DNA of 64,000 bases. Origin: Loxodes magnus (lineage: Eukaryota; Ciliophora; Karyorelictea; Loxodida; Loxodidae). Where the stretch lies: positions 62,001-126,000 of the forward strand of contig CAMPDV010000149.1 in the NCBI GenBank assembly GCA_946699065.1, given 5' to 3'. Position numbers and translations under genes: made by a program. Shown piece by piece: positions 36,356 to 64,000 of this stretch; within the stretch, counting starts at the first letter, position 1; every line of letters begins with the position of its first letter. The notes beneath the pieces were generated by a model. The model worked only from the letters and a program-made list of their open reading frames with translations, made no database searches and was not told the DNA's origin.

Positions 36356-37432
36356 TCAAAGGTCTTCTTTGTGAGCTTTCTTCAAATCTTCTGGAATTCT
36401 ATCTAGGCCTAATTATTCTGGATTTTTAAAGCAAGTTACAAAACTTTGCTTAAGATCGTAGACAACTCCAGGAGTATCGGGTAGTTATACAGTTTATTCT
36501 TCATTATTTAAAACATAATTTTAAACTACTTTGTTGTAGCAGATTTGACTTAAGCATTTTTGCTCACACAATACAACTTAAAGATTTGAAAAGCTTGATT
36601 CTTAGCAGTTACAGGTACTTTAAAAGAGAATAGTATCATACTCTCTCTCAATTTCGTCTTTTTCTAATGAGATATTCCAACATTAGTAAAACTATCTATA
36701 TAATTATGCTCCAAATATCACTTTTTAAGTTTAATTTTCAGGAAAATTTTATAACTTTTTTGATTCAGAATTACTTTCATAAGGTTTATATACTTAATCG
36801 TAGCAAATAAAATCAGCACATTTAGCCCTGCAAAACTAAGTTTCTATTATATTTTCTGAATATCCATCGCATTCCTTTATGCACTCTTTTAGCCTATTCG
36901 ACTTAGTATTCCCTTCAAACTCTTCAGTTGCCTGAAAAATAGATTATCCCTCTTTTCCTTACTACCTTTGCATTTCTCTGAAACTTGGTGGCATTAATTT
37001 TCATTCAAGTTCTTAATATAAAACACCATATTCATTAAGGCTAATTCAATCCCAAATGCACTTTTGCTGCTAAAGCAAACGATTAAATCCTTCTGTTATT
37101 CAAACACTTCCTTCTTTAGGAACATCGAACTACTTTTGCTTAAAATCAACAACATATTCAGAATAAATCTGATTCATGCATTAGTTAGAAAAACAATTAG
37201 ACCAGCATATATGCTAATGAATGATTCTTTCATCACTTCCTGTAAACTCAAACTCTTTGCAATACTTCTAGCAATCCTCTATTATTTTAAGAACTCTTTA
37301 GGTTATTAAGTCTTAGAGTATCTAGGCTTCTTATCTATTTGGATCTGACAACTCTGGATTATCAGCTTCTTGAGAAATTTATGAACTTACTAAGGGTAGG
37401 ATTAAAAGAGTTGCTAGTATAAATACCTTCAT
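36356..37432 (-). CDS. Secreted Cys-rich repeat protein with C-terminal KEDL
   Basis: 358 residues. An N-terminal signal peptide (MKVFILATLLILPLVSSQ) is followed by three similar modules, each with a C-x3-C-x4-C cluster: CWSNCFSNQC, CRAKCADFIC and CEQKCLSQIC, each preceded by another Cys pair. The protein ends KKAHKEDL followed by TGA. KEDL is a close variant of the KDEL/HDEL ER-retrieval signal, which suggests an ER-resident lumenal protein. The signal at the very end also supports TGA as the real terminator. Internal TGA codons (for example SVWITEG, LEWKLMPP) read as Trp and lie far from the end. No family recognised; probably ciliate-specific. Confidence 0.85.
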
Positions 37433-38646
37433 CTTTGGAAAATAAAAATAAAATGAATTTATATATCATAAGATATACATTTAGCATATCATAACTACTA
37501 CTATTACTTCCTTCATATGTTTAAGACTTTAACCACTCACATTTCATCATCTATATTAGTGTTATACGTAATTCATTTCTTCCACTATATTAGTAATTTT
37601 CAGCATTGATAATAAAATTTTAACAATTATTTTTCTTAATTTTAAGCATATAAGATCTAGAATAATAAATCAATTAAATTTGTAAATCATTTAAGTTATT
37701 TTTGTGTTAGTATTTTAGAGTATCTATTTGATACTAAGCTTAATGATAAATGTAAATTTATATTAACTGCTAAATTTGAGCTTTTCAATATTTTAGTTTT
37801 ATATAGCTTTTATACATTTTATTGCTCTTTTTGCTTAGCTTCTCATATCAAATTTAATTTGTGAGGAAATTTACTTTTTTGAAAATTTTATTTCCCATAA
37901 CTAAGTTTGATATCCTCATCTAGCTCAAATTTCAGATTCAAAGAAATTAGCAAAAGAAACATTTATAATTGTTCTTAAGGGATTGAATATTAGCTTGCTT
38001 AATCTTTTCTCTGAAGTTGTTAAACATCATATCTGCTATAAGCTTCATATCTTATACCTAGAATCAATTTATGTATCAAATCTACATAACTCAGCTTACA
38101 GAGAAAGTTTGTTTTATAAGATAAATTTTATATTTTCAAGCATTGTAATATAAAGCAATGGTTTAGAATGATAATCTTTATTAATCTCTAAATAGGAATT
38201 TAAGAGTAATGAAATAACCTTATTAAGCTTAAGCAGAAATAGGATTAATATTACAAAGAGATATTTTATAAGCTAATAATAGCTTCAGCTGTAACCATAG
38301 TGCATTATTAACTAATATCTAATTCCTTTTCTATCATCTTACTTTTAATCTTAGCTATAAATATCTAAATATCTGAGCGCTTTTTTTCTAGTGCTAGATA
38401 AAATTTACAAAATAGATTCTCAATTTCTCGCATTGAATGAGTATTAAAATAACAATTTTCCTCAATTAAGGAATAGAAATATAAGTAATATAGTAAAATG
38501 AAAGATGAGAGTATAGATATTGGCTAAGTGAGTTTACACTTTAAATAGAAAGCAAAAGATCAAAAAAAAGAGTTAATAAGAAGATTTAAATTAATCAGTG
38601 AAGTTAAATTTTACAAAAGTGATTGAAATTATTAATTTAGCCAGAA
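37433..38646. other. Intergenic spacer
   Basis: About 1.2 kb without a supported gene. A start-like ATG at 38489 opens a frame (MKDESIDIGQ) that could be a first exon of the next gene if a short intron lies near 38.6 kb. Confidence 0.5.
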
Positions 38647-40008
38647 ATGAAAGAAGAAATTGACTAAACTCTAAAGAAATGGATAATTCAATAAATTGCT
38701 TATGAATTTGCAAAGTAAAACTTGCACTATTAGGAGTTAGTGTAATATGAAAGTCTGTGGTTCTTGAAGGAAAACTATTCTTAAGATAATATTTTGTACT
38801 AAATCTACCTGCAGCTGTATAGTCATTTTCTTCAAAATAATATTCTGCTGAAGTATAAAAATCTGATTTGCTATTATGCTAATATTATGTATGAGATTAA
38901 GCAGAAAGAAGAACTGATTAAATAGAAAATCCAGTTTTTCAGCTCTTAAAATGTCCAAGCTATAAACTAGTTAACTAAAATTGCAGAGGTTTAGAAAGAT
39001 AGTGTAATTCAGCAATTACTTGTGCAAATATTCAAGAATCATGAAAATTTGCAAAATCTTGATTTTATTCCTAATTTTTATCTTAATCTGCTAATCAAAA
39101 TCGCAGATTAAGAGTTTACTAGTGAAAATTACTAGTTAACGTTTGAGCTAGAAAATGAGAACTTAAGTGACTGATTGTTATTGTGTGAGAATGCAAATAG
39201 TTCACTAAATATTATGGACAGTAATCTTTAAGAGCATTAGGAAAATCAAAAGGAAAACAAAGCAAAGTACTATCAGATAAAACTTGAGCTAAATACCAAA
39301 AATTTGGATTAAAATATAGTATTAAAAATCCTAAAGAGAAAGTGAATAAACAACAGTGTAAGTTCTATTTAATAAATCAGTTCCAAGAATATGGAATCTG
39401 TAGATTTCCTTTGCAAACACTGCTGAACAATCTAGAAACAAATGATATTTCTAAAACCTCAACATAGTTTGTAATAGTTGAGTAAGCTTCTATACAGTAC
39501 AATATTAGAAACTAGAAAAGATATGGAAAGCTTATTCTCTACCAAGCTAAGACTTGAAGTATCTATTAATAACATTGAAGAATCTACCAAGATCTGCTTG
39601 ATGGTTCAAAAAATATGTTATAGTTAGAGTTAATTTCATTTATGAAATTAGTAGTTATAGGATATTACTTAGAAGAAGGATGAGTTTACTAAGGCTTTTC
39701 CAAGTCTTGAGTTCTAGTCTAAATAATTCAAAGCATTTTTTTCCTGGATGAATGAAAAAAAACATATTGAAACTGAAAAGAAGTATAAGTAGGATATGTC
39801 ACAATATGAATCTATTTAACATTAAGGAAATTAAGAATGTGTTTAGCAATGCAAACCTTGCTTTACTCCTAAAAATTGCTTCATATTCTGATCATTAATT
39901 AATTTTATCTCTATACAAGAATAGCCAAACTATTTTAACTATCAAATTATTAGCTTAAAACAAACAAGTAACTGTAAGCAGTTGATTGAGAAAAGAAACA
40001 AAAAATGA
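38647..40008 (+). CDS. Helical protein with Cys-x2-Cys, unknown
   Basis: About 450 codons with many TAA/TAG Gln codons, mostly helical and Leu/Lys/Gln-rich (EIKQKEELIKQKIQFF; TKLRLEVSINNIEES), with a CKHCW motif near residue 255. The start at 38647 is the first in-frame ATG; an upstream exon is possible. The stop is uncertain: in-frame TGA codons at 39889, 40006 and 40042 all lie near the end of coding-like sequence. No family recognised. Confidence 0.6.
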
Positions 40009-40044
40009 TTATAGAATAAACAATTTCTTCTAGCCAAAATTTGA

Positions 40045-41239
40045 GTTGTTTGGGTGAATAGAAGTAAAATAGCGTAGAATAAAAAGTGCAAAGATATAAA
40101 GCTAAAGTATCTAGTTTTAATAATATAAATTAAGCTTATAAATGAATAATCTAATCTGCTAATCTTTATATTTGTATTGCTTATCTTAGCAAATTAATTA
40201 TATATTAAAAACTTTATTTATAATACTCTAAGTCTAAATAATACTAAACATATATATCTCAAACAAGAACAAATTAAAAATGATAAGAATATTATAATAA
40301 AGTGGAAGATTGCAAATCTAATTTTATACTTTATGGATGTTAAAATTCTTTTAATAGTAAGATAAGATTAATAGAGAGTTAAATTACTCCCATAAATTAA
40401 GCTTAGTTATAACAAGCTAATCTCTTAAAGCTAACAAGTTAATTGGTTTTCTATGAATGATATCATAAAAAGTATAAACCTTTTATATAAATAGATGATT
40501 TAATTAAATAAACTATTATTATCATACTTCTTATAGTTTAGAGTATTTAAGCCTTTAAGAGACGTAATTATACAATCAAAATAAGCTTAGAATAATTTTA
40601 GTTTTTTTGCTAATAAAGTTATGTTTATACATTACACTAGATTAATCTTAATTTTAAAGACATTAAAAGTTCTAATTATGCAAGATTAAAAATTGAAATT
40701 AATGCAACTTTTTTTAAATTTATTGATACTAAGAAATTTATGCTTAGGATAAAACTTAATTATAAACTGAGAAAAGGAAAAGAATAATCATTAATCTAAG
40801 TATTAGAAAACTAAGTTTTACAGATAGTAATTCCTTTACATTTTGAAATCCGAATTTATATTGAAAAGGATGGTGAATTTATTTATAGATTATAAAGTAG
40901 TAGATGAGGAGTTAAAGATTTTAAAGCTTTAAAATTAAAATTAGAAAGAATTGATTAAAGCCAGCTAGTTAGTTTAATTTTATTCCTTAGTTTGATTAAT
41001 TTATTATAATGCTAACACAAAAGTTAATTTATTTCTCAAAGCTTTAGCAGATCAAGATACCTAAGTAGATATTTTTATCTTTATTTAATTTCTAGAATAG
41101 CATTTTAAGAAAGTATGAAGGAAGTACTAAGCTCTTTTTAAGAAACATTAGAACATATATAAATTTATACTTATCTGATAAAAGTATAAGATAATTCTAA
41201 TAAATTAAAATGCTAATTCAACTTAAGAAAGTTAAACTC
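40045..41239. other. Intergenic spacer
   Basis: About 1.2 kb of AT-rich sequence between convergent genes with no supported gene. Confidence 0.5.
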
Positions 41240-41971
41240 TCAGTAGCAGTCTTTAATTATGCTTTTTAGGCTATTGACAAATAGTTTTTTTTTTAATTTA
41301 TCGCTCATTATATTTTCTGGAAGGGATTGCTTGTTTTGATACCTTAAGTTTAAGTTTGCCTTCGGAATTTTAAAAAGCAAATCATTCTTTTTCTTTTAGC
41401 TTAAATTTTCGATTGAGTTCTTTCTAGATTATTGCTGTGGGAGTAACATGGATTAGTATTTTTTCAATTTTCTAGTTTATGGAGTGTCATGGAATTTATC
41501 TTTAATAGCTATATCTAAGGCTGAAATTTGTGTCTGATACTTAGGAATGTTAAAGCCATACTTATTTATCTTATGGATATTTCACTTTTTAGTCCTATAT
41601 CTTTTATCAAAGCGATCAATACTATTACTAAAGCTCTTTTATTTCTCCTTCCTAAAAGAAGAAATAGTAGTAATCTTTTAAGGATTAAATCTATTTATGC
41701 TTACATTTATTGTCTTTTTTATTAAAGGTCTTTGCATTTATTACTGATTATTTTATTTCTTTATGGTATTTTCTTTAACGCTTTGGTTATAACTTCAATC
41801 TATTTTTTCTTATGATATATCAATGAAACGATATTATGAGTCTTTATTTTTCTAAGTTTGACTTTATTTTCTAGTTTAAGTTTGTAGCTTTAGAGGTATT
41901 TTCTTTTTTTAATTTACCAAGTTGATGGGACTATTCAGCTGAATTACTTTGAGCTAATTATTCCTTTTCAT
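41240..41971 (-). CDS. Basic Gln/Lys/Asn-rich protein
   Basis: 243 residues, MKRNNQLKVIQLNSPINL to KSIIKDCY then TGA. Highly basic and polar, no hydrophobic helix, no recognised domain. The middle (NKYGFNIPKYQTQISALDIA) looks structured. Internal TGA codons (IDWSYNQ, TKKWNIHK) are read as Trp and none lies near the terminal TGA. Downstream of the coiled-coil gene on the same strand with a gap of about 0.36 kb. Confidence 0.7.
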
Positions 41972-42329
41972 TTTTAATTAACTAATCAATTTCATTTAAA
42001 ATCAAGCAAAGCATTCTATGATGTACTTGGCTTGATAAAAGCCTTTAAATTACTGACATGGATATATTTTTCAGAGTTATGGGAACTTATTATGAGTAAG
42101 TAAACTAGCAAAAGGAAATAATTATTAAATCCATTTACTTGGAGAACTAAAGCTATTATATCTTGCTTTTACTTATTATTTTGAATGAGATATTACTGAT
42201 AATTGGTATAATGGAAAAGAGATTGGAGATATTAAGTGTTGGAGTGGATAATTGATGATTTATAGATTGGAACTAAACTTATTTTATTATTTTCAGCAAT
42301 AAAGAATATTAAAAAATAGCAAGTTAAGT

Positions 42330-44195
42330 GGAATTTGTTATCCACTATAATCTATCTTCCAGACGATTAACTACATGTCTAAGATGTTCTGCAAATTGAA
42401 TTCCCCATCTTCCATTCTATTCCTATAACATAAGATTATCATTCCATGTTTTTAGATACTAAATTTCATCTTTAAGTGTGCTAATATATCTATTTACTTT
42501 ATCTTTAATACTCTACTGTAAATGCTTTATTTATCTTTCGTACTTACTTTTTGCAGCCTGATGATCTTCATTTAGCTTTGAAGTATTTATCTAGTATTAG
42601 TTGCTTTCTGTATCTACTCTTTTTTCCAATTCAAATACCTAATTTTAAAGCTGGCTTAAAAATAATTCCTATTCGGATTTCGCATGTCTTTCATCTTTTA
42701 GTTACTACTTCAGTGATTCCAACTCCTAATCATCATTTGACTTCATTATATTGGTTTATTATTCGAAGTGTTCTATTTTCTATTAATACTGTTAAAGCTC
42801 TAGTTCAATGCTTTTCTTTATTGATTATGTTTCATTTAATTCTGCTTATAATTTTTAAATATTTTCGTCCATTTTCATCTGTAGATCATTGTGCTATTCC
42901 TTCATTACCTCCAATTATTAATTTAGCTAAACTACTGTTTCACTTAACTGTAAATTTTCATTCATTTGCTACTCACATAGTTCTTGATTCTGCAAAACTT
43001 TTTACTTAGTAAACTCAAGCTCTTTAGTAAGCTTATAAATGTATTGTTCGTCTTATTAAGCAATGCTTTCCATTTTCTCAATATATTCAGTACAGCTGAG
43101 CTTTTCTTTTTCAAGTTAAGTTACTTTTTAAGAAAGTTCTTCAAATTATTAGTTAATTTCTTGATTTTAGAGTTCATATTCTTCACATTTCTTTTTAAAA
43201 GCTTTCTTTTCTTATATTATTACTTAGTCTTTTTCTTTTATGCAATCAGCTATCTATTGCTCCAAACTTTTAATTCTCGCATCTTTTTCTTATGAAGCAT
43301 AAAGCATACTATTTCTCTCTTCTTGTAGGTTTAAATATTATAATTTCAAATATTCGTACTCATCCTAAAGCTCTATTATATCTGCAGTTTGTTTACCTAT
43401 TGTTGACTATGCTTAAGTAAATTATTAGGTAAGTTCGTGCTGTAAAACTTAAGTCTCATCTCTTGATTTTTGATGAAGGGAATCAATTTCTTTGCTAAGT
43501 TCAAGTTCCTTATGAGAAAGTTTATCTTCTAAATGTCGAATGGATTTTTCATATTCCATAAGCTAAAGATCTTACTAGCTTTGCAATTTCTAATTTTCAT
43601 TTTACTTTTCTAACAATTGCTCATTCTTTCTCACTAACAGTTAATTTTAGTTTTACAAGTTCAAGATTTATCTTTTGGACTACTCAAGCTGATTACTGAG
43701 CTATGTATTGTTGACGGTTAGTTCTTCTATGCTATTTTCTAAGTTACTAACTTTCTCGTTTAGAATTTGAATTTCAGAGCTCGCTTATTACTAGAGATTA
43801 TCCAATGACCCACTTGAACTTTAAACAAGTTTGTAGCATCTTAGTTTATACTGCTAATTCTGGTGCATTAGGTTCTGAATAGTAACTTCCTATTTATCTA
43901 ACTTCTCATATAATAAGTTATTTTAGGATCGTTCATGAATCAACTCTTACTCCAGTTCCAAAATAGCTTCTCTACATCTTATAAGCAAAGTTTCTCGATC
44001 TTTGCTAAAAGTTTCTGAGCGAGTAGTATAAAGTTCTTTGTTTAAAGTACGCTAAAAATCCAAATTGCCACTAATAGAAGGTTTTGCAGAAAGCAGAACT
44101 CTTCTATTAGTCTACGATTTATTAAGCCTAGGAGTAATTATATGGGAGTATAGCTGGTTGCTAGAAATAAGAGAATCATTTTAAGAGTCCATCAT
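42330..44195 (-). CDS. Long coiled-coil protein
   Basis: At least 618 codons in one frame from ATG-ATG at 44195. Residues 1-70 are Ser/Asn/Thr-rich. From about 75 to 560 the protein is almost continuous Gln/Glu/Leu coiled coil (QIQILNEKVSNLENSIEELT; KHLQQSIKDKVNRYISTL). A conserved-looking tail follows (QNGRWGIQFAEHLRHVVNRL). Such proteins in ciliates are typically basal-body or cortical structural proteins; that is inference. After QWITNS the frame drifts into AT-rich sequence with no TGA for a long way, so the 3' end is unresolved; a short intron before the end may be missed. Confidence 0.7.
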
Positions 44196-44725
44196 TAATA
44201 TGATTATCAACTAAAAGGAAGAATTTCTAATTGTTTAACTATATCTCTCTTTATTTAATTCCTCTTACTTTTAATTTTACTTCCTTTTACTCTTTTAACT
44301 GAAGATATGCTAACTTAATTCCTTTAGTTACTTTATTGATTAGACTAAAACTCTATAATTTACTGTGCTATTTATATATAAACAGCTTTTAATCATATCT
44401 TATCCTTCTTTTACTTGCTAGAATAGTAGTTTAATATAAAGTTTCAATAGAAGTTTAACTATCAACTGGCATCATTTAAGTTTATAGTAGATTGTTGTAA
44501 AACTAAAATTTACCTTTTTTATATCAGTTAATAATACTAACTTAGACTTCTGGCTAGAAAGCTTCAGTTTTATTAGATGACTAGTTTTATTTGCTTATCT
44601 TAATTCATCAAATATCTTAGATTATTAGCTAAATAGCCTTATTTACAAATACCTAGGATGCTAGGTATGACAGATAGGGGAAAGTGAGGTAAGGGATTTA
44701 AGTGTGTAGAGAGTATTATAAAATA
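44196..44725. promoter_or_regulatory. Divergent intergenic region
   Basis: About 530 bp between the start of the coiled-coil gene (minus) and the CEP44-like gene (plus). It must hold both promoters. No specific motif identified. Confidence 0.5.
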
Positions 44726-45730
44726 ATGTCTAATTTAAAAAATAAACTTATTGAGCTTAAGCAAACGCTAGACTTAATAAAAGCTCATCTTTTACTAGAT
44801 GAAAATGCTTTAGTAGAAGGACAGCCATAGCCTTATTATCAGATTCTTTAGTACTTAGCGACAGAATGATCATCATATATTCACAAATATATATCGATAG
44901 ATTTGAATTATAACCTAAAGAACAAAACAATTAGTAATTTTATGGAAGCTTTGTATAGTATTCTGTAGAGACACTTTCGATACACTCCAGTACTACCTAT
45001 TCAAGCTTTTATGAATAAAGGAAATCCCGAGAAAAAGCTCTAGCTTTGCTTAGATGTCATTAAGAAGCTTAGATAGAAACATAATTTTCTTACTAAAAGC
45101 AGAATAAAAACTTAGACTAAGTAAGATTTACTCTAATCTGAAGTTACTATGACTTCACGATCGCCTGATAAAATAAGAAAGAACAAGTCATTCAAAGAAC
45201 TATCAAAAAGCTTTGAAATCACTTCAGAAAAGAACAACACATAAGTACAGAAGATAATCAATTAATGCAAGCCTAAAAATGTTAGAACTATAAATGTTAG
45301 TCTTTTGAAAGCTCCCCGTAAATCTTATCTTAGAAAAAGCAACAACGAATGATGAGAATAGTTAGAGAAACAAAATATGAAGAGTATTCAATTTGAATTA
45401 GATATGCACAGCTTTATGCTATCAGAACTCAAACATATTTATAAGAAACTTAAAGAAATGGATTCCATGATTCAAGACCATGTTGCTGCCACTAATTCCA
45501 AACTCAGTGGGCTTACTTCTAGAATTACTTCCATAGAAAACTTTATACACTAATATGTTCCAAATGGATAACAGCTCAAGATTCCAAACATCGAAAAACA
45601 GTTAGAAAACAACGAAGAGCCATTCCAAAATAATCAAGATAGTATTATTAGCAACTCCATTCATAGTGAAAGCAATAGTTTCTCTATATTTCTTGAAGAG
45701 AATAACAATTAAAACAACTCTGATCATTGA
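44726..45730 (+). CDS. CEP44-domain centrosomal/basal-body protein
   Basis: 334 residues. Residues about 5-120 match the CEP44 domain layout: LKNKLIELKQTLDLIKAHLL, then a YYQILQYLATEWSSY segment, NFMEALYSILQRHFRYTPVL with QAFMNKGNPEKKLQLCLDVI, ending in a basic KKLRQKH. In animals CEP44 binds the centriole and helps centriole-to-centrosome conversion; in a ciliate a basal-body role is likely. The C-terminal third is coiled coil (ELKHIYKKLKEMDSMIQ) as in CEP44. The Trp in ATEWSSY is TGA, inside the domain. A TGA-TGA pair lies at about 45350; since good coiled coil follows in frame it is read as Trp-Trp. Ends SDH then TGA. Confidence 0.75.
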
Positions 45731-47208
45731 GTAACCTTTAAATAGGATAAAGACAAATGCATTATAAATTGTTTTATTCATATAAACTCATTTACTATTA
45801 ACTTCAACAAATCAGTTAAATAAGTTCACACTTAATTAAGCTCTACTCTGCTATTTTATGTATTAGGGAATATAAAAATCTTATTTATAAGCCAAATTTG
45901 AAGTGACATACTATAAAGTAAATATATAGCAGCACATTGCTTTATACTTAAATTAGAAATAATGAACCAAATAGCCTTTTAATATAATTAATAGTGCTGC
46001 ATTTTTTATTTAACGTTAAAGTATATTATTAGCATAGTAAGAAATATCATAAGACACTTTAATTTTGTTAATAAAGCTTCTAAGAGAAATATATTTAGAC
46101 ACTAATTAAACCAAAATCTTTCTAGTTTCCTAAATAAAGTTTTTTAAGCAAAATCCAATAGTTAAGAGCATATTTACTATTAGCTTAATCATACAATTGT
46201 AAGCTTAAATAGCTCAGCTTAATGATATAATAATTTGTTAAATTCTATAGTTTTTGGATTAAATCTTTCAACGAAGAAATATTTATCTTAGCAAGATATA
46301 TACGACAAATATCAGACAAGATTGATGCTATTAAAGTTAAATATATTTAGTAAAGCTGTTATAGGAATCTAAACTAAGTATACATTAAAAGTCTAATTTA
46401 GCATTTTATAGAGTTACTTTATTAAAGTAACTCTAAAATTGTATAGAGTTGAATATTAAATAATTGTACCTAAATATACTAATGTCTATAGAGTCTCTTT
46501 TTTAGTAGTAATCTGGTATTAGTTTCAATTAAAGATATCCATGTGAATATTTAAAGAGCAAACTAAGGAATTTAGTTATTCTATTCTACCTTAGCAATTA
46601 CTTCTTAATTAGATTTAAAATGAATTTATAATCCAAAATATTGGGTAAATAGTAGTTTGAATACAAGCAGTTTTAACTAATCATTTTTAGTTTATAGTGC
46701 TTTTAGCTTTCATTCAATAATCTTAACTTTAGCTTCTCTATAGTAATTAAAGAATCTTGCTATAAAGGGATTTAAGCCTTTTAATTGAAATTAATTTTCC
46801 CTTTACTAATTATAAAGTGAGATAGTTTGCTTTACTAAATAGAGCAGAGTTATCAATTTTAATAAAAGGAATGACAGTAATTGCTTAGACTATTAAAAGA
46901 AAGAGGAAGTAAAGTATTAAAGCTATTTAGATAGCTAACTAATCATAATCCTCTTATATAAGAGTTTTAAAATACCTTTAAGCAAACTTATACTAACCTT
47001 CAACTTAAAATATATACCCTTATTTTTAGAGTAACTTACTTTAACTATATTCAGGAAATTAAGATAGATTCAATTAAGGAAACCCCTTTATTAACTTTAA
47101 GTTGAGATAATGCAAAATTATAAGAAAAAGAGTAAAAAGGAGTGAAGTATTAAAGTTAGAAATTGGTATAGTTAGTGCTTTTTTAATTGTTAATTTAAAT
47201 AAAAGAAA
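45731..47208. other. Intergenic spacer
   Basis: About 1.5 kb with no supported gene. Contains the palindrome at 46409-46435. Confidence 0.5.
46409..46435. repeat. 27-nt perfect palindrome
   Basis: Arms TAGAGTTACTTTA and TAAAGTAACTCTA flank a single T. It lies alone in a long spacer. It could form a hairpin or bind a dimeric protein. No related copy was noticed nearby. Confidence 0.8.
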
Positions 47209-48027
47209 ATGACTTAGAGATGGAATCATGAATTGTTATAGTGCTGCAGTAATCATGACCAAGTGTCTAAACTTTTATGAATTTGTCCATGCTATTTCAG
47301 CTTGTAAACAACTTGGAAAAACTTTTAGGTTTTAGAAGGAGAAGAAAATGCAAAATAAATAATATGAAAAACTGTATTTTGTGGAGTAAAAGCATTTGCA
47401 GAAAACAGAGGATATATAAGGCAAAAGTTCAATATTGGAGGCAGTTGTTGCGATGATTGAATTTCTCATTTTTTCTGTCATTGTTGTGCAATCATTTAGG
47501 AATATAATGAAGTTCATTCAAATCATAGCGTTATAGTAGGGCAACCTGGCTAAAAATACTTAGATTAGTAAATTGGAGAAGTTTAAATGTAAGAGATGAA
47601 AAAGCCTGGGACATAATCATAATAGAAAAGAAATGAATCTTAATCAAATGAAATAGAAATAACACACTAAACATAATTGTAACCTACTGTCATTAAATAT
47701 TAAAACCCTTCAATTTCAGCAAATTAAATACAATGCAACACTACTACTTGCTAATAATGAAAACAACTTGCTAAATTACCAACAGAACCAGATTAGGAAA
47801 AAATAAGAAGCGCTTTAAACCATTTAAGGTAATATTAACATGAAAAAACTTCTTGCTAAGAACAATAAGGAAAATGCAAATATTTCTTAAAGGCAAATGA
47901 CTAATAAAAAGATACATATAAGTTGATACATCTTTTAACATATCAACATGAATCAGATACAATAATGACAGATGATATGATGATAAATGAGCTTGAGTAG
48001 TTATTACTGAAATCTAACAAAAAATGA
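47209..48027 (+). CDS. PLAC8 (Cys-rich) domain protein
   Basis: 272 residues. Residues 4-100 form a PLAC8 domain: RWNHELLQCCSNHDQ, then ICPCYFSLQ, and the hallmark second half IRQKFNIGGSCCDDW followed by FFCHCCAIIQEYNEV. PLAC8 proteins are small Cys-rich membrane-associated proteins linked to cell size, cadmium resistance or calcium in other eukaryotes; the role here is unknown. Residues 100-272 are a Gln/Asn/Lys-rich tail without domains. TGA encodes Trp in LLWICPC, IIWKTV and DDWISHF within the domain, and a TGA terminates after LLLKSNKK. Start chosen at the first ATG, directly before the domain. Confidence 0.85.
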
Positions 48028-50824: not shown

Positions 50825-52330
50825 ATGGACAATCAAAGTGATTATCAGTAACTTAGGGATAAAACTAAAGCTTTTTTAATGAGGAATTACTAGAAGTTTA
50901 AGAATAAAGAAACCCAATAAGAATTGAACTCAACTCTTAAAAGTGCTTAACAGATTGAATCTTAATAGGAGTTTGTGAAAGAATTGAATTCTGCATTTGC
51001 TTAATTAGAAGTACAGCAGTAGTAAGATCCTTAAGAATCAGCTGTTAGTTCGGATATTCATTTTGGAGAAGAAATATCAAATGGGTAAACTACTAATTGC
51101 ACTTCTTAAGAAAATACTTTAGATTAGAAACCTAAAACTAAAGCAGAAATAAGACTTGCATAGAAACTAAAGAATAGCATTGATCAAAATTAAGACTCAA
51201 AGAGTTAATCCGATTAAAATTTGAAAACATCATAGTCAAGCCTTGAAATAAGCAATCAGGTAAAAGAATGATCTTTTTAAGAGGTTGAATGTGAGAGTAT
51301 TAATGTTATAGGGAATATTTAAAGTGATTAAGTGTTCAAATCTCATCAAAGTGCGTAAGATGATTAAAGTTAAATGTCAAAGAGCTAAAATATATTTAAA
51401 AAGCCAGAAAGAGTTAAGCCAAGTAGCTTAATAAGGTAACATAATACTAGGTAAAATTATTTTAAGGAATCTTAGTCATAAAATTCTAAACTTTTGCCTA
51501 AAAACAAATCAGTTTCTCCTAAACCTTCAATTAAAGAAGTAGCAACTACAAGAAACTGCGAACTTCTATAATAATACACAAACAGCTATTTAGCTAGAAT
51601 ACAAACTAATGACTGTGTTTTTAAGCCCACCTTAAACTCTATGAGTTAAATTTTAGATATTCATGCAAAGGTTTTAGATGAAAACGGGAAAAAAATGCCT
51701 AGATGAAAGATTTTATATAATTAATAGGAAAAAAAAAAACAAAAACTTGAAAGACTCGTGTAGGAAAAGAAATCTCAATAGGCACTTAAAGAAGAAGAAT
51801 AACTTAAAGAATGCACTTTTAAGCCCATGCTTTATAAGCACAAAGTATCTTATTAAACTAAGTAAAGTAATTTCTATTCTCGAATGTAGGAATGAAACTA
51901 ATAAAAGGAATAGAAAATATAGGCAATGCAAATATAGCAGTGTGATGTTGCTTTATAAGAATGTGTTTTCACTCCTGAAGTTCATGAGTTTAATTAAGAA
52001 GTAAATGAATCATAAATTCATAAAGGTGTTACTAGTTTCTTAAAGCGGTAATAGTAAGCTTAAGCAGAAAAATAGAGAAAGAATGAAATAAATAAAAAGT
52101 TTAATGGAGATAAATGATAGAATTTGAGAACTAAGCCTAAAAATTTTACATTCAATTAGCAAGTTGATAAGGACAGAATTAAATGCTTGAAAAGAGTAAG
52201 TATTAACTAATTAATATAGCCCATTGAATTCTCATAAAGATCAGCTGCAAATGTAAGTTTTCTCGACGAGTAATAGAATCTAACATATTCAAACTAGAAG
52301 TTGATTTAAACAAAGTATATATACACTTGA
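50825..52330 (+). CDS. Ciliate cytoskeletal-type protein with F-x-P repeats
   Basis: 501 residues, MDNQSDYQQLRDKTKAF to KLIQTKYIYT then TGA. The first half is Gln/Ser-rich and disordered. The second half has repeated units with a Phe-x-Pro core (CVFKPTLN, CTFKPMLY, CVFTPEVH) separated by charged helices containing a Trp (FYSRMQEWNQQKEQKI; MPRWKILYNQQEKKKQ). This architecture is common in ciliate and alveolate basal-body or ciliary proteins of unknown function. The Trp in both helices is TGA, and Trp is the expected residue there. A GTAAGT with a downstream TAG near 52.2 kb could be a 24-nt intron but the frame is also open through it. Confidence 0.75.
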
Positions 52331-52828
52331 TATTATGCTTAAATAATAGTTTTATCATTCAAATAAGCAAACTTACTAAGGTCTTAATCTTTTAAATGAA
52401 GTATATTAGCCACATATCTATATATAAGTAAAGGCTTCTATGAAAGGTATTATATCTACAATAATTAGATTAAATCTATTATTGATAGACTTAAGTTAAG
52501 CTAGTTTGATCCAGAAATAAAAAATTAGTATGATCGAATAATTTAACTTGTAACCGAACATATAGTAATAATGTATAAGGCTGTTAGTTTGTTTTAGTAA
52601 CTAAATCTAAGGTATTTGTATAAATTGTTTAATTAACAAGGAATTTAAATGTGACTGCTAATGTTGAATTGTTTAACCTTCTGGAATATTCTTAGCTAAA
52701 TAAACCCTTGCTAGTGTTTTATTTATTAAGTTTAATTTAAGACACTTGATACTTGGTATTATTGTCTTCTAGGTAAGTTTTGAAGATAAACGATTATGTT
52801 AAAAGTAAATAAAGTTTAATAATATAAA
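52331..52828. other. Intergenic spacer
   Basis: About 0.5 kb, AT-rich, contains the promoter of the small MGC protein. No motif recognised. Confidence 0.5.
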
Positions 52829-53044
52829 ATGGGTTGCATTATGCCTAGATCCATGTAACCTTACTTTACTCCTCAAGAAGTGAGAAGAATGAATGATACT
52901 AATAGACCTAATGGGTGTAAAAGATGCTGCTGGAGAATTTGCTGCGGTCGTGAGCTTTAGGAATTCGAAGAAATGGAGCAATATTATAAAAAAGCAACAC
53001 TAGACGAAACATTTGAAGAAGCAGGTTTAGAAGACGATAAGTGA
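52829..53044 (+). CDS. Small N-acylated-type protein (MGC start)
   Basis: 71 residues. The N-terminus MGCIMPRSM has Gly-2 and Cys-3, the pattern of N-myristoylation followed by palmitoylation, plus a basic residue nearby, so membrane attachment is likely. A Cys/Arg-rich centre (GCKRCCWRICCGREL) is followed by an acidic helical tail (EEMEQYYKKATLDETFEEAG) ending EDDK then TGA-TAA. The only Gln-coding TAA/TAG are at MQPYF and LQEF. Family unknown. Terminates convergently with the next gene, about 240 bp apart. Confidence 0.75.
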
Positions 53045-53283
53045 TAAATTTATAGTGTTCATATAATTTATTTCCTCTTATTCTTTTATAATAATCTTAC
53101 CTTTATATCTTTAGTAACTAAGCATTCAAGCTACTTATTCCAAAGGTAATCAAATACTTGATCTATTATTACAAATACTAAACTCAGCATAACTTAAATT
53201 TTTAACTCTGAATTTATATTTTGAAGTTACTTTCGTATTTTCAATAGTTATCTCAATATGTTACATATTTAAATGACTCCTAC

Positions 53284-56200: not shown

Positions 56201-56657
56201 TTTCAAGGTATTCAGCTCTGTTACACTAATCTCAATTAATTTCTTTCTTTTCTTTTATTAGTTAAAAGTCACTAAATTCCTTTTGCAGCTTTACCAGTTA
56301 TAGCTCTCTTTCTTAGTTTAGCCTTATATATTTATTTAGTAAATTCTGCTATGTTCTTGTATTGAACTCACTATCCTAAAGCTAAGTTTCCTGTTGAGAA
56401 ATTTTATAGAATTAGCCTGAAGCTTGCTAATCGAAAGATATTTGATCAAGTTAATCAGTTGAATTATTTAAGCTCTGACTATAGCATATAAAGTATAGTT
56501 ACCTAATATGAGCAGACAACTCTCCCTCTGCTAGTTATTTTTCTAACTCTTAAGTGAGATCTGACTTCTTTTATTTGAAATTTAGCCTTTTCTTCTAATC
56601 AATAGACAGTCGCTTAATTAGCTATTTCCTAAGAATCCTTATTCTTTAACTCTTCAT
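53284..56657 (-). CDS. Very large coiled-coil protein with tiny introns
   Basis: Begins MKSQRIRILRKQLIKRLS and is coiled coil over much of its length (DLTQELEKQLAEGELSAHIR; KKLMELQEERDQILISFL; NNLLKEKVKLIKTSIQQEQ) with Ser/Gln-rich linkers (QQSPGAQSRQSLSVDPKLK). Exons in different frames join through very short introns: 56157-56172 (16 nt) keeps the reading intact, and 54209-54223 (15 nt) is an in-phase candidate. At least one further discontinuity lies near 54.1 kb, and the exact splice there is unresolved. The stop is placed at the first in-frame TGA, 53284. About 1100 residues. A structural basal-body or cortical role is plausible but inferred. Confidence 0.6.
54209..54223 (-). other. Candidate 15-nt intron
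   Basis: Reads GTAATTAATTTTTAG on the coding strand, a textbook tiny-intron form. Being 15 nt it does not change the frame, so the support is the sequence form only. Confidence 0.4.
56157..56172 (-). other. Probable 16-nt intron
   Basis: Reads GTAAGCTTTTATATAG on the coding strand. Removal joins FIEK to SMAEQDRFTYNHM and restores the coiled-coil frame. Without it the upstream frame meets a TGA within a few codons while the downstream frame remains coding-like. Size and GTAA...TAG form match the 15-16 nt introns known in heterotrich ciliates. Confidence 0.65.
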
Positions 56658-56836
56658 TTAATTAATTTACTTATTAGAGAATTACAAATCTTAAAACTGC
56701 TAGTTCTATACGCTATATCTATCTTCCTTCTATATAAAGAATAATAAAAGTAAAGAGATAGAGATAGTAAAGCATGGATGGAGGTATGTGTAAGGAAGAG
56801 GGAGCAGTTAATTAAAAGTAGTGAATAATAAATTAA
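56658..56836. promoter_or_regulatory. Short bidirectional promoter region
   Basis: Only 179 bp separate the start codons of two divergent genes, so both promoters must lie here or overlap the 5' UTRs. Confidence 0.6.
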
Positions 56837-57796
56837 ATGTAGCAAAAAGCAAAAAACTAGACTGATAGTACTTTAACTAATAAATCTACCATAGAGTCTC
56901 CCTATAGATAATATCTCAATACTTCAGAAGTTAGATTTCCTAAAGTCCAACACTCTGAAAGAGCTTAGTCCATAAATTCTACTCAAAACAAACTCTTTAG
57001 TGTTAAGAAAACCAGAAAGGAAGTGGAGGAGGAAATTTAGCTTCTTTAGAATAGGCTGAAGTTACTTCAAACAGAAGATGAAAGAACTAGCAAGAACATT
57101 TAAGAAACTTAGAAGAAGGCAGATTATATAAAGAGCTTATAGGCTAGAATGGAGGAAAAATAGAAAATTAAAGAAAAGGTACAGAAAGATAGAGAGGAGC
57201 ATATCTAAAGGTAGAAGCTTTTGATAGCTTAGAGAAAATAAGAGCAGCAGATTAAGTTTTCTAAGTAATAAGAAATACTAGCGTAAAAGTAATTAAATGC
57301 ACAGGAAATAAAAGGAATTTCTAAGCATATCAAATAAACTATAGAAAGATCAAGATAAGAAGTATACTAATATAGTTCCAAAATTGCTCAGCTACATTAG
57401 TAGTAAAAAGAGCTTCGAAGTTTAAAAAAGAACTAATGGAATGCTATAAAAGAGAAAAGTAAGAGAGATTATTAATAGAAAGTAGAGCAAGAGTGGTAAG
57501 AAATGCAAGCAAAGAAAGATTTACTTCGATAATTGGAAGAGTAAGAGCTCTCACTTATTGAAAATTTGAAAGTGAAACAGTAAGATTAGAGAAATGCTTA
57601 TAAGGATTTAGAATCTGTTATTCTTTAGGGTGCTGGACGGTATTAGAGGCAATTATTGTAACTTATTACTAATATATCTTTTACTTTATTTACTCTTCTT
57701 CCTTAATATAAACAATCTAAACAAATTCTGAAAGGTAAATTTAAAGTTTTTTGCTTTTGCAGCTTAGATCCTTAAATTATTCTATAATGTAACTGA
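56837..57796 (+). CDS. Coiled-coil protein
   Basis: 319 codons from ATG to the first in-frame TGA. The first 60 residues are Ser/Thr/Gln-rich. Residues about 65-260 are one long Gln/Glu/Lys coiled coil (EVEEEIQLLQNRLKLLQ; KADYIKSLQARMEEKQK). The last 55 residues before the TGA look like AT-rich spacer (ITNISFTLFTLLPQ), so the protein may really end near 57660 through an intron or an unrecognised stop. Family unknown. Confidence 0.65.
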
Positions 57797-58224
57797 ATTA
57801 AATAAACTAATATGCTTTATACAAGCCAATCCATTCCATTCCAACTATTTTATTTCTAGCAATCTCTAATAGTATTTTTATATTTAGTAGTGTTAGAAGG
57901 ATTTTATTAAGTCCTTATGGTATCTGTTTCTTTATTAATAGTTCTAGTTAAGTAAGGATAGACATCTGATATCAATATGTTTGCATTTCTATGGTTATTT
58001 CAGCATTATTAATTGATTTTCGTTTTAATGATATTTCTTTAAAGATATAAGTAAGGACTAGATCTAGGCTTTAATCTTCATTAATGCTTTCTTTAAGCTT
58101 TAAAATTCAATCTGGTTTTAAGTTTATAGCTTAGCTTTACAAACAAGAAAATCAAGATTTTAGTTTTGTCCCGCATTTCCTTTTTGAAGGCAATATAAGG
58201 GAAATTTGATAATTTTTAATAAAG
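57797..58224. other. Intergenic spacer upstream of eL41
   Basis: About 430 bp, AT-rich. Must contain the eL41 promoter. No motif recognised. Confidence 0.5.
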
Positions 58225-58302
58225 ATGAGAGAGAAGTGGCGAAAGAAGAGAATGAGAAGACTAAAGCGAAAGCGCAGAAAGATGAGAGCTAAGGCTAAGT
58301 GA
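58225..58302 (+). CDS. RPL41: 60S ribosomal protein eL41 (complete, 25 aa)
   Basis: A complete 25-codon gene. The peptide starts MREKWRKKRMRRLK and continues with the invariant Arg/Lys helix to RAKAK, nearly identical to the eL41 of animals and fungi, which is also 25 residues. eL41 is the smallest ribosomal protein, a single helix bridging the two ribosomal subunits. The codon after the last Lys is TGA. Because the family length is invariant, this fixes TGA as a true stop in this genome. The Trp in it is TGG. No Gln occurs, so TAA/TAG are not used. Confidence 0.95.
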   Translation: MREKWRKKRMRRLKRKRRKMRAKAK

Positions 58303-59268
58303 GTTGTTCAGATAATCATATTATACTTATTAATTAAACCTAATTTAACTTATCCCTTTACCTTCTTTCTTTTTTCCATTCTAAGTCTTCTTATTAACTT
58401 ATTTGCTCTTTCCGGTTTTTAAGTCATATAAAGCATAAAATCAAATTTAGCGATGTTTGGTAAGTTTAAGTCACAACTAGACTAAAGTTAATGACACTAA
58501 TATGGCAGTTTACATAACAAAAATTAAACAAAAACATCAAATAAGCTTCACCTCAGTCTGTGAAAATAATTATTTAATCTGGATCTTTTGAAATTCTATG
58601 ATACTAACTTGTGTATACAAATCAACATTTAGAATGCTAGCTCTAATAAAATTAAGAATAGCCTGCATTTAAAATCAATAGATTAGCTTATGATTCTGCT
58701 TAATATATAATGGATAAAGTTTAATTAATCAACTATTGAAAGATATTCCATTTTGTCTAATATTTATAAGTAATATCTTAATTCAGCAACCAATAGTGTA
58801 GAATCTAACATTTTAGCTATAACAGATACTTTAACTACCTTCTTAGATATTAAAAAGAAGAGTCTCTTCATTTAGAAATAAGCATAAAATACCCTGCTAA
58901 TATAGCTAAAGATAAATATTTTATTGAGCAGGTAATTTATATATTCTCTCTATCTAATTAGATTTAAAAAATTAAAAAAACTATTGATTATAGTAATTCC
59001 TTCTAAGTTTTTATGATGGTATATTCAGAAAAAAAGGCATTAAGAGCAGAAAGTAGTTATAGATAATTTCTTAATTTATTCTTCTTTAATACTCAACTTT
59101 TACAAATTTTAAATAATAGATTAAATCAGCATTGATGAAATACATTATTAATAACATTAATGGGAAAGTCTGCTTTAGTGAAACTATTTCAGCTCTCTTT
59201 TTAACTCTCTTTAATAAATTTAGTATACTTCGCTAAGATTTGTTTGACATCTTTATTTACTGTCACTT
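58303..59268. other. Intergenic spacer
   Basis: About 1 kb between convergent genes, AT-rich, no supported gene. Confidence 0.5.
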
Positions 59269-61242
59269 TCAATTTTTAAACTAATTTTTCCTTTATTAAA
59301 CACTTACTAAATTGCTTTTTAAAAGACTAAGCTTTTTTTTAGCTTTACTGACTTCTTTTTCAGCTTCAGCTATTCTAAGTAGCTATTTTTAATTTGTATC
59401 TTCTCATATTTCTCTCCGTTTTGATTAGACTGATTTGAGGTTTTCCAGTTTTTGGGTGTTAATATCTTATAGTTAGTTTATTTTTTTCTGCATTAATCTT
59501 TTATCATATTCTAATTAATCAATCCTGTTTTCGCAAAATATAATAGAGTGCTATAGAATTTAATTCTTAATCATTTATTCATTTATCTTCATCTATATAT
59601 TAGTCTTCTAGTTTACTACTTCTAAATATTTATCTTTAAATTACATTTAATGCTAAGCAGCTGCTCTTTGGAGCTTTAATATCTTATCATGAAGCTGAAT
59701 ATTTTCTTTAAAAATAGTTTCTTTAGATTCCTATAACTTAATCATTTTTTGTTCTAGGTTTTACTTTTCAGAAATTTAAACTTTGCTCATTTCTTCTCTA
59801 TTTTTTACCTCTACCTTAGAAATATCTTCTTAGTTCTTAATTCTTTCAACTAGTAATTAAGTTTGGAGTTACTTAAATTCTTCTAATGCTTCTTATAATT
59901 TCTGCTAAGCAGCTTGATTAGTTTCCATACTGTTTTAATATTATTGTTCTAGTTAATTGATTAAATTGCTCTATTCCTTTAGTTACTCCTGAGCAAGTTG
60001 CTTTGAAATAGCTCTTTGTTCATTTTCATTATTAATAGCTTCTTATTACAGCTCTAGCATTTTTTATTCTTTTTACTTAATTTAATCATCATAGTTAGAT
60101 ATTATCTAATCTAATTACTCTTTTATCTTGCTTATTTCTGTTTGAAGCACTTATTTTTCTTCTGTTTCATTATTTATTTATACCTCAAGGTTTTGTAAAG
60201 TTTATCGCTTATTAAGTTACAATTTTAATATTTGCTGCTTGAGTTGTAAATAAGAATCTTCAGCGTGAGACTTTATCAGTTTTTCTTGCTAGATTTGCTG
60301 AATTATTTCGTTTTACATCTCAAAAGTCTTAATTTGCTCCTTTTCAATCAGAAATTAGATTCCTTCTCTTTTGGCATCAGTTTGTACATGAGAAATAACC
60401 ATTTGATTATATTTATAGGCAATTTCTTCATCTTAGTCATTTCCTAGTACATTAGAGCTATAGAATTCATTTGTGAATGAATTAGATTCCTAAGGTAATC
60501 TTTTTACCTCAAACTACTAACTCTATCATCGTGAATGTGTTTAGTCCTCTTATTAGTCAAATAAAATTTCACAGTTTTGTTCTATTAAATATTTCTGATA
60601 CGGACTTTGAAAAATTTTGGCTTTCTTTAGCTAAATTTCAATGTCATCTAAGATATCCTCTGGAACTTTATTTCCAGTTAAGTCAAGTTGAATTAGTGTT
60701 TTGTTGACATACAATGATTACAATAAAGCATGTCCTCCGTAAGATCCAATCTCGTTTCATCTTAAATCGAGTTTCACTAGAGATGTATTTTTCATTAGCA
60801 TACTTGCTAATGCTTCAGCATCTTTAGGTCCAATTTTATTATACTTAAGATCTAAAAAGTTGATGGTGGTATTGATTGCAAGAGCACTTGCTATTGCTTC
60901 TACTGCTCCACTGAACATTCCAATGTTATTTCACTCTAAATTAATAGATTTAATCTTGCTAGGCTTCTTAAGATACCAAGCTAGAACTTTAGCACCTTCC
61001 AGTCCTATATTATTTTGCTAGAGTTAAATAGAAACTATTTGGGAATTTTCTTCAAGGAACTAGAATAATTAAGAACTACCTTCATCACCTATAAAGCAGT
61101 TAGCGAGATTAAGAAGTGGATTGCCTCTTTAGCTTTCTAATACTTAGGTAAGCTACTAATTAGGGTCTACTTTTAATATATGAATTGATTCTTCTGATGA
61201 GACAATTAAAGATTACTCAGACGAAGAAGATCAATTTGACAT
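59269..61242 (-). CDS. LRR plus coiled-coil protein
   Basis: 657 residues in one frame from MSNWSSSSEQ. Residues about 35-185 hold leucine-rich repeats of the ribonuclease-inhibitor type (QNNIGLEGAKVLAWYL; INLEWNNIGMFSGAVEAI; LDLKYNKIGPKDAEALASM; LDLRWNEIGSYGGHALLQ; LDLTGNKVPEDILDDI). Residues about 270-640 are Gln-rich coiled coil (KLQLNKRQTLQNLEVQINN; QKMLELQQEAINNENEQR). In LEWNNIG and LDLRWNEIG the Trp is TGA at the position where many LRR proteins have Trp before the Asn, good independent support for TGA=Trp. Ends RKNQFKN then TGA, with a second in-frame TGA two codons later. Likely a scaffold protein; partner unknown. Confidence 0.85.
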
Positions 61243-62706
61243 TTTTATTTGAAAAAAAGCGCGCAATTAGTAAAAATAAAAAGTCTAGCGAATCCAAATA
61301 ATAATCTCATTTAAGTCATATCTATAAGCTTATTTGTTCTATTTCTTAATTCAAACCTAAACAAAGATACAACCATACTATACTTCTAAAACTATCTCTC
61401 TAATGATATAAGTACAAGTCTCTAACTATTATAATATCCATTATCTGCTTTATAGTTTCTATAAAATTATTAATGTATTAAGCTTACTTTCCTCATATAA
61501 ATAGATATAAGGCTTTGTATAAGATAATGCAAATAATATTTGATTGAAAAATATGAAAAAAGACTAGTGCTTGCATAATAATTTATCTTATATTGATACT
61601 ATATTTACTAATCTACTTGCTTTAGGAAATTTGCTAGTCCTTTTTATTATTGAATGCTTTACTTAATTTATTTATTTATTTTCTTTTGTGCTAAATATTT
61701 TACTTCAAACCTTTGCTTTATATAGCATTAATTTAATATTAAACTAATAGCTTCCATAAAACCTACTTTATAAGGTATTTAATATGTATTAGCATTTTAT
61801 TACTAGTAAGCTGCTAGTATCAAGTTTAAACTTAAGATATCTATCTTTACTGGCTTTTTATCAATTTTTGCGTTTTTTATATTTATCCAAAAAGCCAAAA
61901 CATGAAGTAACCCACTATATTTAGTCCAATACATGAAACATAACCTTCAGTTTGGAGTACTAGTTGATATCTGCTTTTATATATAATAATAAAGCTATTT
62001 AAACTATAAGAGTTAAGCATATTATTAACCCTTATATCCATAATACCTTTACTTGCTATCTCTAGTTTAGTTTATATACTAGTTATTCCTATACTTATTT
62101 AAGTTTATCTTTCATAATCTTATGTACAATCTCTTTCTAATTATACCTACTTGCTATTTTGTAATAATGGATAAAGTTTATAACAAGAAGGTGTATAAAT
62201 GATGAAAGGACCATCTATTTAAGGATAGATACTTAAAAAGCATATAATGAAAATAATAACTTGCTAAGTTACCTTTTAAAGTACCTAAGAGCAATTATAT
62301 ACCTAACTAGATTTCTCTCAAATTAGTATATTTATTATTCTATGCTTCAATGCTATAGTAAGGAAAACTTTAAGAGCTAATACTTGCTTTGCATATATAA
62401 TGATACTTAGAGGAAGATTCTTAGCAAGGAAATAAAAGTAACATATAGTAACTAAAAGTTACTAGCATTATTAGAGTACTAAAAGTGTTAACTTTCTTAC
62501 CTTTTTTATATATCAAAAGCAAATAATTTACTCTAAATGCCTGTATTATTTAGCAGAGGTAATATAAATAGTAGGGTTATTTAGAAAAGGTAACAGATTA
62601 AAGTGCTAATGACTTTCTATAAAGCTTATTTAACTAGTTAGTGTAAGTAGAACTAAAGAAATAACTGACGTTTAATTAATTAAATTAATCTTGTGCTAAT
62701 AAGATA
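61243..62706. promoter_or_regulatory. Divergent intergenic region
   Basis: About 1.5 kb between divergent genes. AT-rich with no supported gene. Confidence 0.45.
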
Positions 62707-64000
62707 ATGGAAACTCCTATCTCTGACCTTAGCGCTTAGAAAGCTTAATTGTTCAAATGACTAAACTCTCTTAAAATAGAAAGTTGTAGATAATGTTAAA
62801 CGATAGATGAGCTTAGGAAGGCAATTGCTCTTAGTGAACTAATAGCTTACTTGTATAATATAAATTAAGCCAATATAAAGAAGAATATCTCTACTGCTAA
62901 TAAAAGCTTCCTTGAAGACTGCTTATAGAATTTATAGTTTGTACTGGATATTTTATCAAGCAGAAGTATATTAAATGCCCCTAATTTAACTAATGAAACT
63001 CTTTTTTACAGTGATCAGCATTTGATCTGAATACTCTCTATGCTTCAAAAAGAATTTTTCTTGAAAGCTGGTAGAAAAAATGTAAGGGTTTAGCCTTTTT
63101 AAACTAACGCGGACTAGGAAAGAAACTTATTATAGATTGATAAATTGGAGTTTGTCTCTCCTTCTAATGCCTCAATGAAGCTTCTTTAATCTTAGAAACT
63201 GGAAGATATAAATGTTAGCAGGATAAGCTTGAATAATGTGGATAATTCCTATAGTTTAATTTCTAACCTCTAGATGGGACTAAGTAGGGGAATCTCTGCT
63301 AGTAAAAATTAGATTATTTAATCTAGACAGCAGCTTGAATTCCGCTTTCCTAGTCCCACACCTCCTGATATTATAATTAAGCGATAAGCCTTCTAGTTTC
63401 AGTAAAAGCTTTAATAGAGCAACTAAACTCTCTGAGAATGAATACTACAAGTTATGAAGAGGATAAAGCAGCAGAATAAGCTAATAAGCATTCCTTCCTA
63501 ATAAGAAGTTGCTAAATATTTCAGCAATGGCATGGCACTTGCTGCTTTAATAAACTATTGTGAGTAAAGAATAGTTTTCTCTATCAGAGACATGAAGTAA
63601 ATAAATAGCTTTGAAAGCCTATAAATAATTAAGAAAGTTATTAAAATCATTAAAAGGAAGATGAATGTACAAAAGACTTTGTATACTATTGATTAAGTAT
63701 TAGCTAGAGAAGATTAAGCTATTTGGACTCTTTTAAGTGATTTAAGGAATATTTATGACCAAGATGAGGAAAATCTAACAAGGAAAATTACTAATTCATA
63801 GAGTTTGGTAGATTTATGAAGGTAGAGTTCTGAAGATATTTAAAGGCCAGAGCCGCCAAGTCCTTTTAGTAGAAGTGTATTTAGCTAGTCTGTTATCGAT
63901 AGAAACGAAAACCAATAGCTTTTGCAACTTCAAATATGATTAAAATAATGGAAAATAGAAGGAAATCCCTAAGAATTTAAATCTGAAAATATACTTGATA
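62707..64000 (+). CDS. Calponin-homology-like protein (partial, runs off the window)
   Basis: At least 431 codons from ATG (METPISDLSAQKAQLFKWL), open to the window end. Residues 15-110 (FKWLNSLKIESCRQ; LRKAIALSELIAYLYNINQ; FLEDCLQNLQFVLDIL) and 240-350 (LWEWILQVMKRI; EVAKYFSNGMALAALINY; QAIWTLLSDLRNIYD) each follow the pattern of a calponin-homology domain: an opening Trp helix, a hydrophobic ALAxLI-type helix and a closing Trp/Leu helix. CH pairs bind actin or microtubules; in ciliates such proteins are often ciliary. Trp in FKWLN, LIWIL and both in LWEWIL are TGA. Ser/Pro-rich linkers join the domains. The CH assignment is by pattern only. Confidence 0.65.

Follow-up and report, generated by a model that had tools for sequence, protein, structure and literature searches.

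Tryptophan, stop and a probable selenocysteine reading of UGA in the karyorelict ciliate Loxodes magnus

The nuclear code of karyorelict ciliates is reportedly the one described by Seah et al. in 2022, NCBI table 27. In Loxodes and other karyorelicts, according to PMC11441545, UGA is the sole stop under this code and is read as Trp when its distance upstream of the poly(A) tail is large enough. This source gives 3' untranslated regions (UTRs) of Loxodes magnus a mean of 53 and a median of 41 bp, describes a depletion of coding UGA and UAA over about 20 codons before the stop, uses a gene predictor that bars UGA in frame from the last 21 nt ahead of a stop, and puts the macronuclear assembly at 706 Mbp. 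A "codon triality" of UGA has been described, with thioredoxin reductase (TrxR) as its case, in Condylostoma magnum and in the karyorelict Parduczia sp. (Swart et al. 2016, PMC4967479). Here we analyzed a stretch of 64,000 nucleotides of L. magnus DNA (contig CAMPDV010000149.1, C149:62001-126000, called the window below) together with the genome to which it belongs (705,730,643 bases searched, 7,843 contigs). At a probability of roughly 0.93 for the claim as a whole, the window would be karyorelict macronuclear DNA written in table 27, in a genome where a small set of mRNAs also uses UGA for selenocysteine (Sec).

The code found here is the same as karyorelict table 27, and the putative Sec reading is what is added to it. 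As in Condylostoma and Parduczia, UGA would stand for Trp, stop and Sec, TrxR is involved, and a candidate Sec insertion sequence (SECIS) follows close behind the Sec codon (PMC4967479). In Loxodes there are five such TrxR genes and two SPS2 genes; all three readings are predicted within each of the five, and all five have a probable spare UGA in frame behind the stop. With table 28 of Condylostoma magnum it shares that all 64 codons can be sense and that termination depends on context; UAA and UAG are also stops there, whereas we found no unambiguous case in Loxodes. Blastocrithidia likewise reads UGA as Trp through a tRNA-Trp(CCA) with a 4-bp anticodon stem, uses UGA for Sec as well and has an altered eRF1, but its UAA and UAG (UAR) encode Glu, UAA is the stop and its eRF1 carries S70G where that of Loxodes has S70A (PMC12153298). 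Amoebophrya is also described as combining UGA for Trp with Sec. That UAR is Gln and that UGA is Trp or stop in Loxodes is already known. The string "selenocystein" is absent from the main text of PMC11441545, supplements not covered, and a literature search, whose reach did not extend to Seah et al. 2022, listed a single 2015 review; no report of a Loxodes selenoprotein was found.

UGA at candidate selenocysteine sites

The genome contains 13 matches to the family Pyr_redox_dim, five of which are TrxR-type genes (loci L062-L066) ending in GC-TGA-G-TGA. In each of them the tail reads TGC-TGA-GGT-TGA, so that the putative Sec TGA and the stop TGA are one codon apart, with their starts separated by six nucleotides, at the end of a frame of ~490 codons. 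As L064 and L065 show only 11 differences in 3,339 bases, the five tailed genes amount to four distinct copies. All five carry TGA at locus positions 667 and 697, which in the alignment with L066 are Trp in both solved TrxRs. L066 has extra TGA codons at 562 (Trp in both) and at 1624 (one Phe, one Trp). In all, each tailed gene contains, besides the Sec-site and stop TGA, two to four TGA codons that meet a Trp in one or both solved sequences in the same alignment. At the Sec site itself the aligned solved sequences have Cys. Beyond the stop, a further in-frame TGA forms the third codon in all five genes (L062-L066, at about position 1903); the two codons in between vary among the four distinct copies, and this TGA is probably a spare stop.

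A second family has TGA at a Sec site. Both SPS2 genes read GMKG-TGA-GCKVPQ, and the aligned solved SPS sequences have Thr or Cys at the TGA; we take the one with Thr to be human SPS1 and the one with Cys to be a Leishmania-type SPS. Genes for tRNA-Sec and SepSecS were also searched for. The tRNA-Sec model RF01852 gives 52 matches, three of which, at 63.5-73.9 bits, are above the gathering score (47), sit on contigs of 1.4 and 2.0 Mb and are all called SeC(tca) by ARAGORN; the two examined among the 49 sub-threshold matches are tRNA-Ser. SepSecS is present in the genome (E 1.9e-104).

A hairpin resembling a SECIS element lies 3' of the stop in seven of seven genes (five TrxR and two SPS2). It carries TGA on its 5' side and GA on its 3' side, and has a helix of 8-10 pairs with AA close to the apical loop. 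In TrxR, the hairpin TGA starts 44-46 nt beyond the first base of the Sec TGA; in SPS2, it starts 27 nt beyond the first base of the stop TGA. From this position, 3' UTRs longer than the published median would follow. A strict SECIS pattern, composed after the sequences had been viewed, is found in six of the seven genes (L062 being the exception), compared to five matches in 208,674 bases of Rab loci. Relaxed by one mismatch in a 10-pair helix so as to admit L062, the pattern is found in all seven, against a background of 0.0098 per 150 nt, from 25 matches among 382,562 bases belonging to other loci; as further background it occurs six times in the window (both strands) and in 15 of 1,800 shuffled flanks. 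Combined, these features suggest that UGA carries the hallmarks of a Sec codon in this genome, as it appears from sequence.

Several observations weigh against this reading, in addition to the way in which the patterns were composed. An Rfam cmscan with E up to 1 identified no SECIS family in the loci of the seven genes, and the relaxed pattern also occurs within 600 nt downstream of two of 14 other redox loci (L061 and L067). L067, a sixth TrxR-like copy, is without the Sec tail, and none of the four GPx genes has a Sec-site TGA, all four having Cys. The Rfam result, L067 and the GPx genes, along with the derivation of the Sec reading from sequence alone, favor the proposal that the TGA in question is a premature stop or a Trp codon in TrxR and a Trp codon in SPS2, the tRNA-Sec genes being a relic. 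We consider this proposal improbable: it leaves aside that TGA stands exactly at the Sec site in seven genes of two unrelated families, that GGT-TGA follows the Sec-site TGA in all five tailed TrxR genes, that the hairpin keeps a near-constant distance in every one of the seven and that three tRNA-Sec genes occur together with SepSecS. Decayed stops at the Sec sites were rejected on the Sec-site, hairpin, tRNA-Sec and SepSecS evidence. Apart from these families, two C-terminal exons of the Rdx family (SelT/SelH-like; L051 and L052) were found, whose upstream redox motif could not be placed; an upstream TGA within L051 did not match a CxxU motif.

Under the Sec reading, the hairpin behind the stop would direct UGA to Sec in this small set of mRNAs. 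In TrxR, SECIS and the Sec machinery would recode the first UGA only and the second would terminate; since the two are one codon apart, their distance from the poly(A) tail, the cue accepted for stopping at UGA under this code, is hardly what distinguishes them. The choice of Sec at that one codon would have to prevail over the Trp tRNA as well as over the release factor, and the spare UGA could serve as a fail-safe for a stop placed unusually far from the poly(A) tail. Taken as one joint claim, we find it likely that each of the five TrxR mRNAs uses UGA as Trp (two to four times), as Sec and as stop, with a SECIS-directed override and a spare UGA as fail-safe behind a stop unusually distant from poly(A).

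Codon meanings and gene ends in Rab genes

To assign the codons by conservation, Ras/Rab genes were searched for in the genome (721 candidates, 150 scored matches) and the best 30 were examined and aligned. In this alignment the TGA codons (n=23) have an aligned W weight of 0.75, 92 times the background, next to 0.74 for TGG. Q is the residue furthest above background at TAA (n=132; 13 times, weight 0.21) and also at TAG (n=61; 11 times, weight 0.18). Two Trp columns take 20 of the 23 TGA codons, and the codon preceding DTAG[QM] is W in 18 of the 30 Rabs, TGA in nine, Y in two and L in one. By the criterion of conservation, UAA and UAG are Gln codons, the Gln of relatives being most above background at both, and UGA inside genes is a Trp codon placed at conserved Trp positions.

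Rab proteins end in prenylated cysteines, and the end of the gene is therefore fixed independently. A CC or CxC tail lies at most six codons before a TGA in 12 of the 30 Rabs, half of which (six) also have an internal TGA; two further ends, CSKC and CNLL, were recognized by eye. None of these 14 recognizable ends has another in-frame TGA nearer than 31 codons beyond the stop. The other 16 Rabs lack a cysteine tail at the first in-frame TGA, and several of them probably continue beyond an intron. UGA is thus found as a stop at the 14 recognizable Rab ends, in the five tailed TrxR genes and at the ends of the eL41 and KEDL protein genes of the window. UAA and UAG would accordingly be translated as Gln, and UGA as Trp within genes, with termination at recognizable gene ends.

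A number of points go the other way. All codon readings given here derive from conservation, and three Rab TGA codons fall outside the Trp columns: one (L035) in a column of mostly Asp or Tyr, one (L025) in an intron-like insertion that is likely an intron, and the third in a column of mixed composition (F 13, L 6, K 5, W 2), in which the closest paralogs of that gene, L015 and L020, carry W. At three of the 14 recognizable Rab ends, TAA or TAG stands between the cysteine motif and the TGA, an ambiguous arrangement that would suit a code of the Condylostoma type (table 28), where UAA and UAG, too, can terminate near transcript ends. The TGA is reached without an intervening TAA or TAG at the 11 other Rab ends, in the five tailed TrxR genes and at the ends of the KEDL protein and eL41, and UGA is the sole stop of Loxodes as far as PMC11441545 describes it. 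This code was rejected, as no unambiguous UAA or UAG stop is present among the ends examined, and we hold it to be very unlikely. Least credible is a Tetrahymena-like code with TAA and TAG as Gln and TGA as stop only, in which genes with internal TGA would be pseudogenes, introns or assembly errors: low GC and UAR as Gln are compatible with it and the TGA in the L025 insertion would suit it, but the Rab Trp columns contradict it, since decay would not pick Trp columns, as do five TrxR frames of such length with TGA at conserved Trp positions.

Table 27 is thus retained as the code of this genome. The sequence-only reading of the window had proposed that all three stop codons are sense while TGA is also the stop, in an ambiguous code of the karyorelict type; both proposals hold, the first in agreement with the published Loxodes code (table 27) and the second being the same as published for Loxodes magnus. 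That reading of the code was correct and yet incomplete, in that a probable third meaning of UGA, Sec, was missed.

Genes of the window

The six frames of positions 36000-64000, translated with code 27 (TAA/TAG as Gln, TGA as Trp), were compared with Pfam in 18 frame stretches. Four domain-bearing stretches are continuous only when TGA is translated. A CEP44 gene occupies 44726..45730 on the plus strand, with the CEP44 domain at 44735-45097 (E 1.6e-18); a TGA lies within the domain at 44867, a tandem TGA TGA follows at 45350 and 45353, and the domain stretch contains five TAA and TAG codons. Its stop is likely the TGA at 45728-45730, a position that homology does not fix. A PLAC8 domain lies at 47200..47520 on the plus strand (Pfam span 47221-47511, E 5.8e-12), with in-frame TGA at 47278, 47365 and 47458 and seven TAA and TAG codons. 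Leucine-rich repeats (LRR) are encoded at 60625..61236 on the minus strand (Pfam LRR_6, E 2.6e-11), with TGA at 60933 and 60759 within the repeats, another at 61233 preceding them and 11 TAA and TAG codons. A calponin homology (CH) domain at 63382..63801 on the plus strand (Pfam span 63418-63756, E 6.6e-5) has TGA at 63433 and 63439 and 14 TAA and TAG codons; read in the long frame, its match scores 23.5 bits, below its cut-off of 26, and a comparison with solved structures gave no match at E up to 0.1.

To ask which residue TGA gives, it was set in turn to ten residues and the Pfam bit scores were compared. For PLAC8 the scores are F 57.1, C 56.7, L 56.2, W 56.0 and Y 55.0 (lowest 51.1), and for CEP44 they are Y 78.0, C 76.8, F 76.4 and W 75.8 (lowest 74.5). 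LRR_6 is best with W (67.7, then Y 66.1 and F 65.6, lowest 60.5), while in LRR_1, a second repeat model, G (30.3), Y (28.9) and R and S (27.8) all score above W (27.3). The CH domain gives W 28.5, Y 26.1, F 26.0 and 25.7-25.9 for the others, and its match extends to the domain start only when TGA is W. Summed over PLAC8, CEP44, LRR_6 and CH, W reaches 228.0, ahead of Y (225.2) by 2.8 bits, F 225.1 and C 223.4, with the other six at 212-219. In the window, TGA is thus read as a residue, with a lean toward Trp, and its domains single out Trp weakly; the decisive evidence for Trp comes from the Rab genes elsewhere in the same genome. Because PLAC8 and CEP44 slightly favor residues other than W, their matches show read-through and not the identity of the residue. 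The earlier claim that LRR, PLAC8 and CEP44 stay open only with TGA as Trp accordingly stands for read-through and falls short for Trp identity, and its "several independent proofs" were too strong, given that F, C or other residues fit PLAC8 and CEP44 slightly better. Trp at the TGA positions was likewise borne out in part, for LRR_6 and not for PLAC8, CEP44 or LRR_1.

Three genes had been read as ending exactly at a TGA, and they do so. Ribosomal protein eL41 (58225..58302, plus strand; Pfam Ribosomal_L41 at 58225-58299, E 6.7e-6) has 25 amino acids, MREKWRKKRMRRLKRKRRKMRAKAK, with Trp encoded by TGG, followed by TGA at 58300-58302. The KEDL protein (36356..37432, minus strand) is one open frame of 358 codons with a start resembling a signal peptide, MKVFILATLLILPLVSS, internal TGA at 37102, 37048 and 37003 and 29 TAA/TAG codons; it ends in KEDL, similar to an endoplasmic reticulum retention signal, and then TGA at 36358-36356, and Pfam gave no match in its span. 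The small MGC protein (52829..53044, plus strand; 71 amino acids, starting MGC) has no internal TGA and a terminal one at 53042-53044. The remaining Pfam match in 36000-64000 is a weak Rho_N (E 0.053), and RNA-family and tRNA scans of the window found none. A codon-usage gene finder trained on the Rab matches marked only seven stretches across the window (two within 36356-64000) and was dropped.

When TGA is taken as the sole stop, the longest frame identified in the window lies at 41820-44471 on the minus strand; it has 883 codons, 96 of them TAA or TAG, and no Pfam match. Elsewhere in the genome, long tandem arrays on contigs C1503, C119, C9, C1832, C620 and C272 account for most of the 150 best WD40 matches; their spacing is often a multiple of 126 bp, and many of these matches have one internal TGA.

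tRNAs, release factor and the choice among readings

A Gln-type tRNA pattern (D-arm plus YTYTAR, anticodon UUA or CUA) gave 182 matches in the genome and none in the reversed control; the anticodon is UUA in the 100 matches listed and in the three copies examined in full. A tandem array of Gln-type tRNAs (UUA), with 19 matches spaced by 273-279 bp, is present at C214:232598-237599.

With a tRNA-Trp pattern allowing CCA or UCA, a single site with CCA was found in the genome, and a DNA search with that gene yielded 131 candidates, 40 of them scored. Six Trp-like copies were examined, and ARAGORN assigned four as Trp(CCA) and one as Arg(CCT), the last being unrecognized. A tandem array of tRNA-Trp-like sequences lies at C148:157290-165068 (33 minus-strand matches, spacing ~241 bp). 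Of the 34 matches of this array, one was examined; it is Trp(CCA), and a T.C mismatch in place of its top pair leaves a 4-bp anticodon stem. A tRNA-Trp(CCA) with such a stem is known in Loxodes, as cited in PMC13092985. The four Trp-like copies on C110 and C7736 do not fit as well, three having 5-bp stems and one being unrecognized. The tRNA-like copies of C110 (L071 1494-1566 and 719-791; L075; L076) have a nearly common body with anticodon arms of Trp(CCA), Met(CAT) or Arg(CCT), and are perhaps a tRNA-derived repeat family. The release factor eRF1 (L056), aligned to the human protein, shows E55A, T58R, S60Q, S70A and Y125F and retains NIKS.

The predicted TrxR ends have a consequence for annotation. 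As the published predictor bars UGA from the 21 nt before the stop, these ends would be excluded from its output, and the published Loxodes gene models at the TrxR genes may be wrong. Within one TrxR tail, two UGA codons that begin six nucleotides from each other, at a practically equal distance from the poly(A) tail, would meet opposite fates. The TrxR tail would therefore provide a clean natural test of how the ribosome assigns one codon to Trp, Sec or stop.

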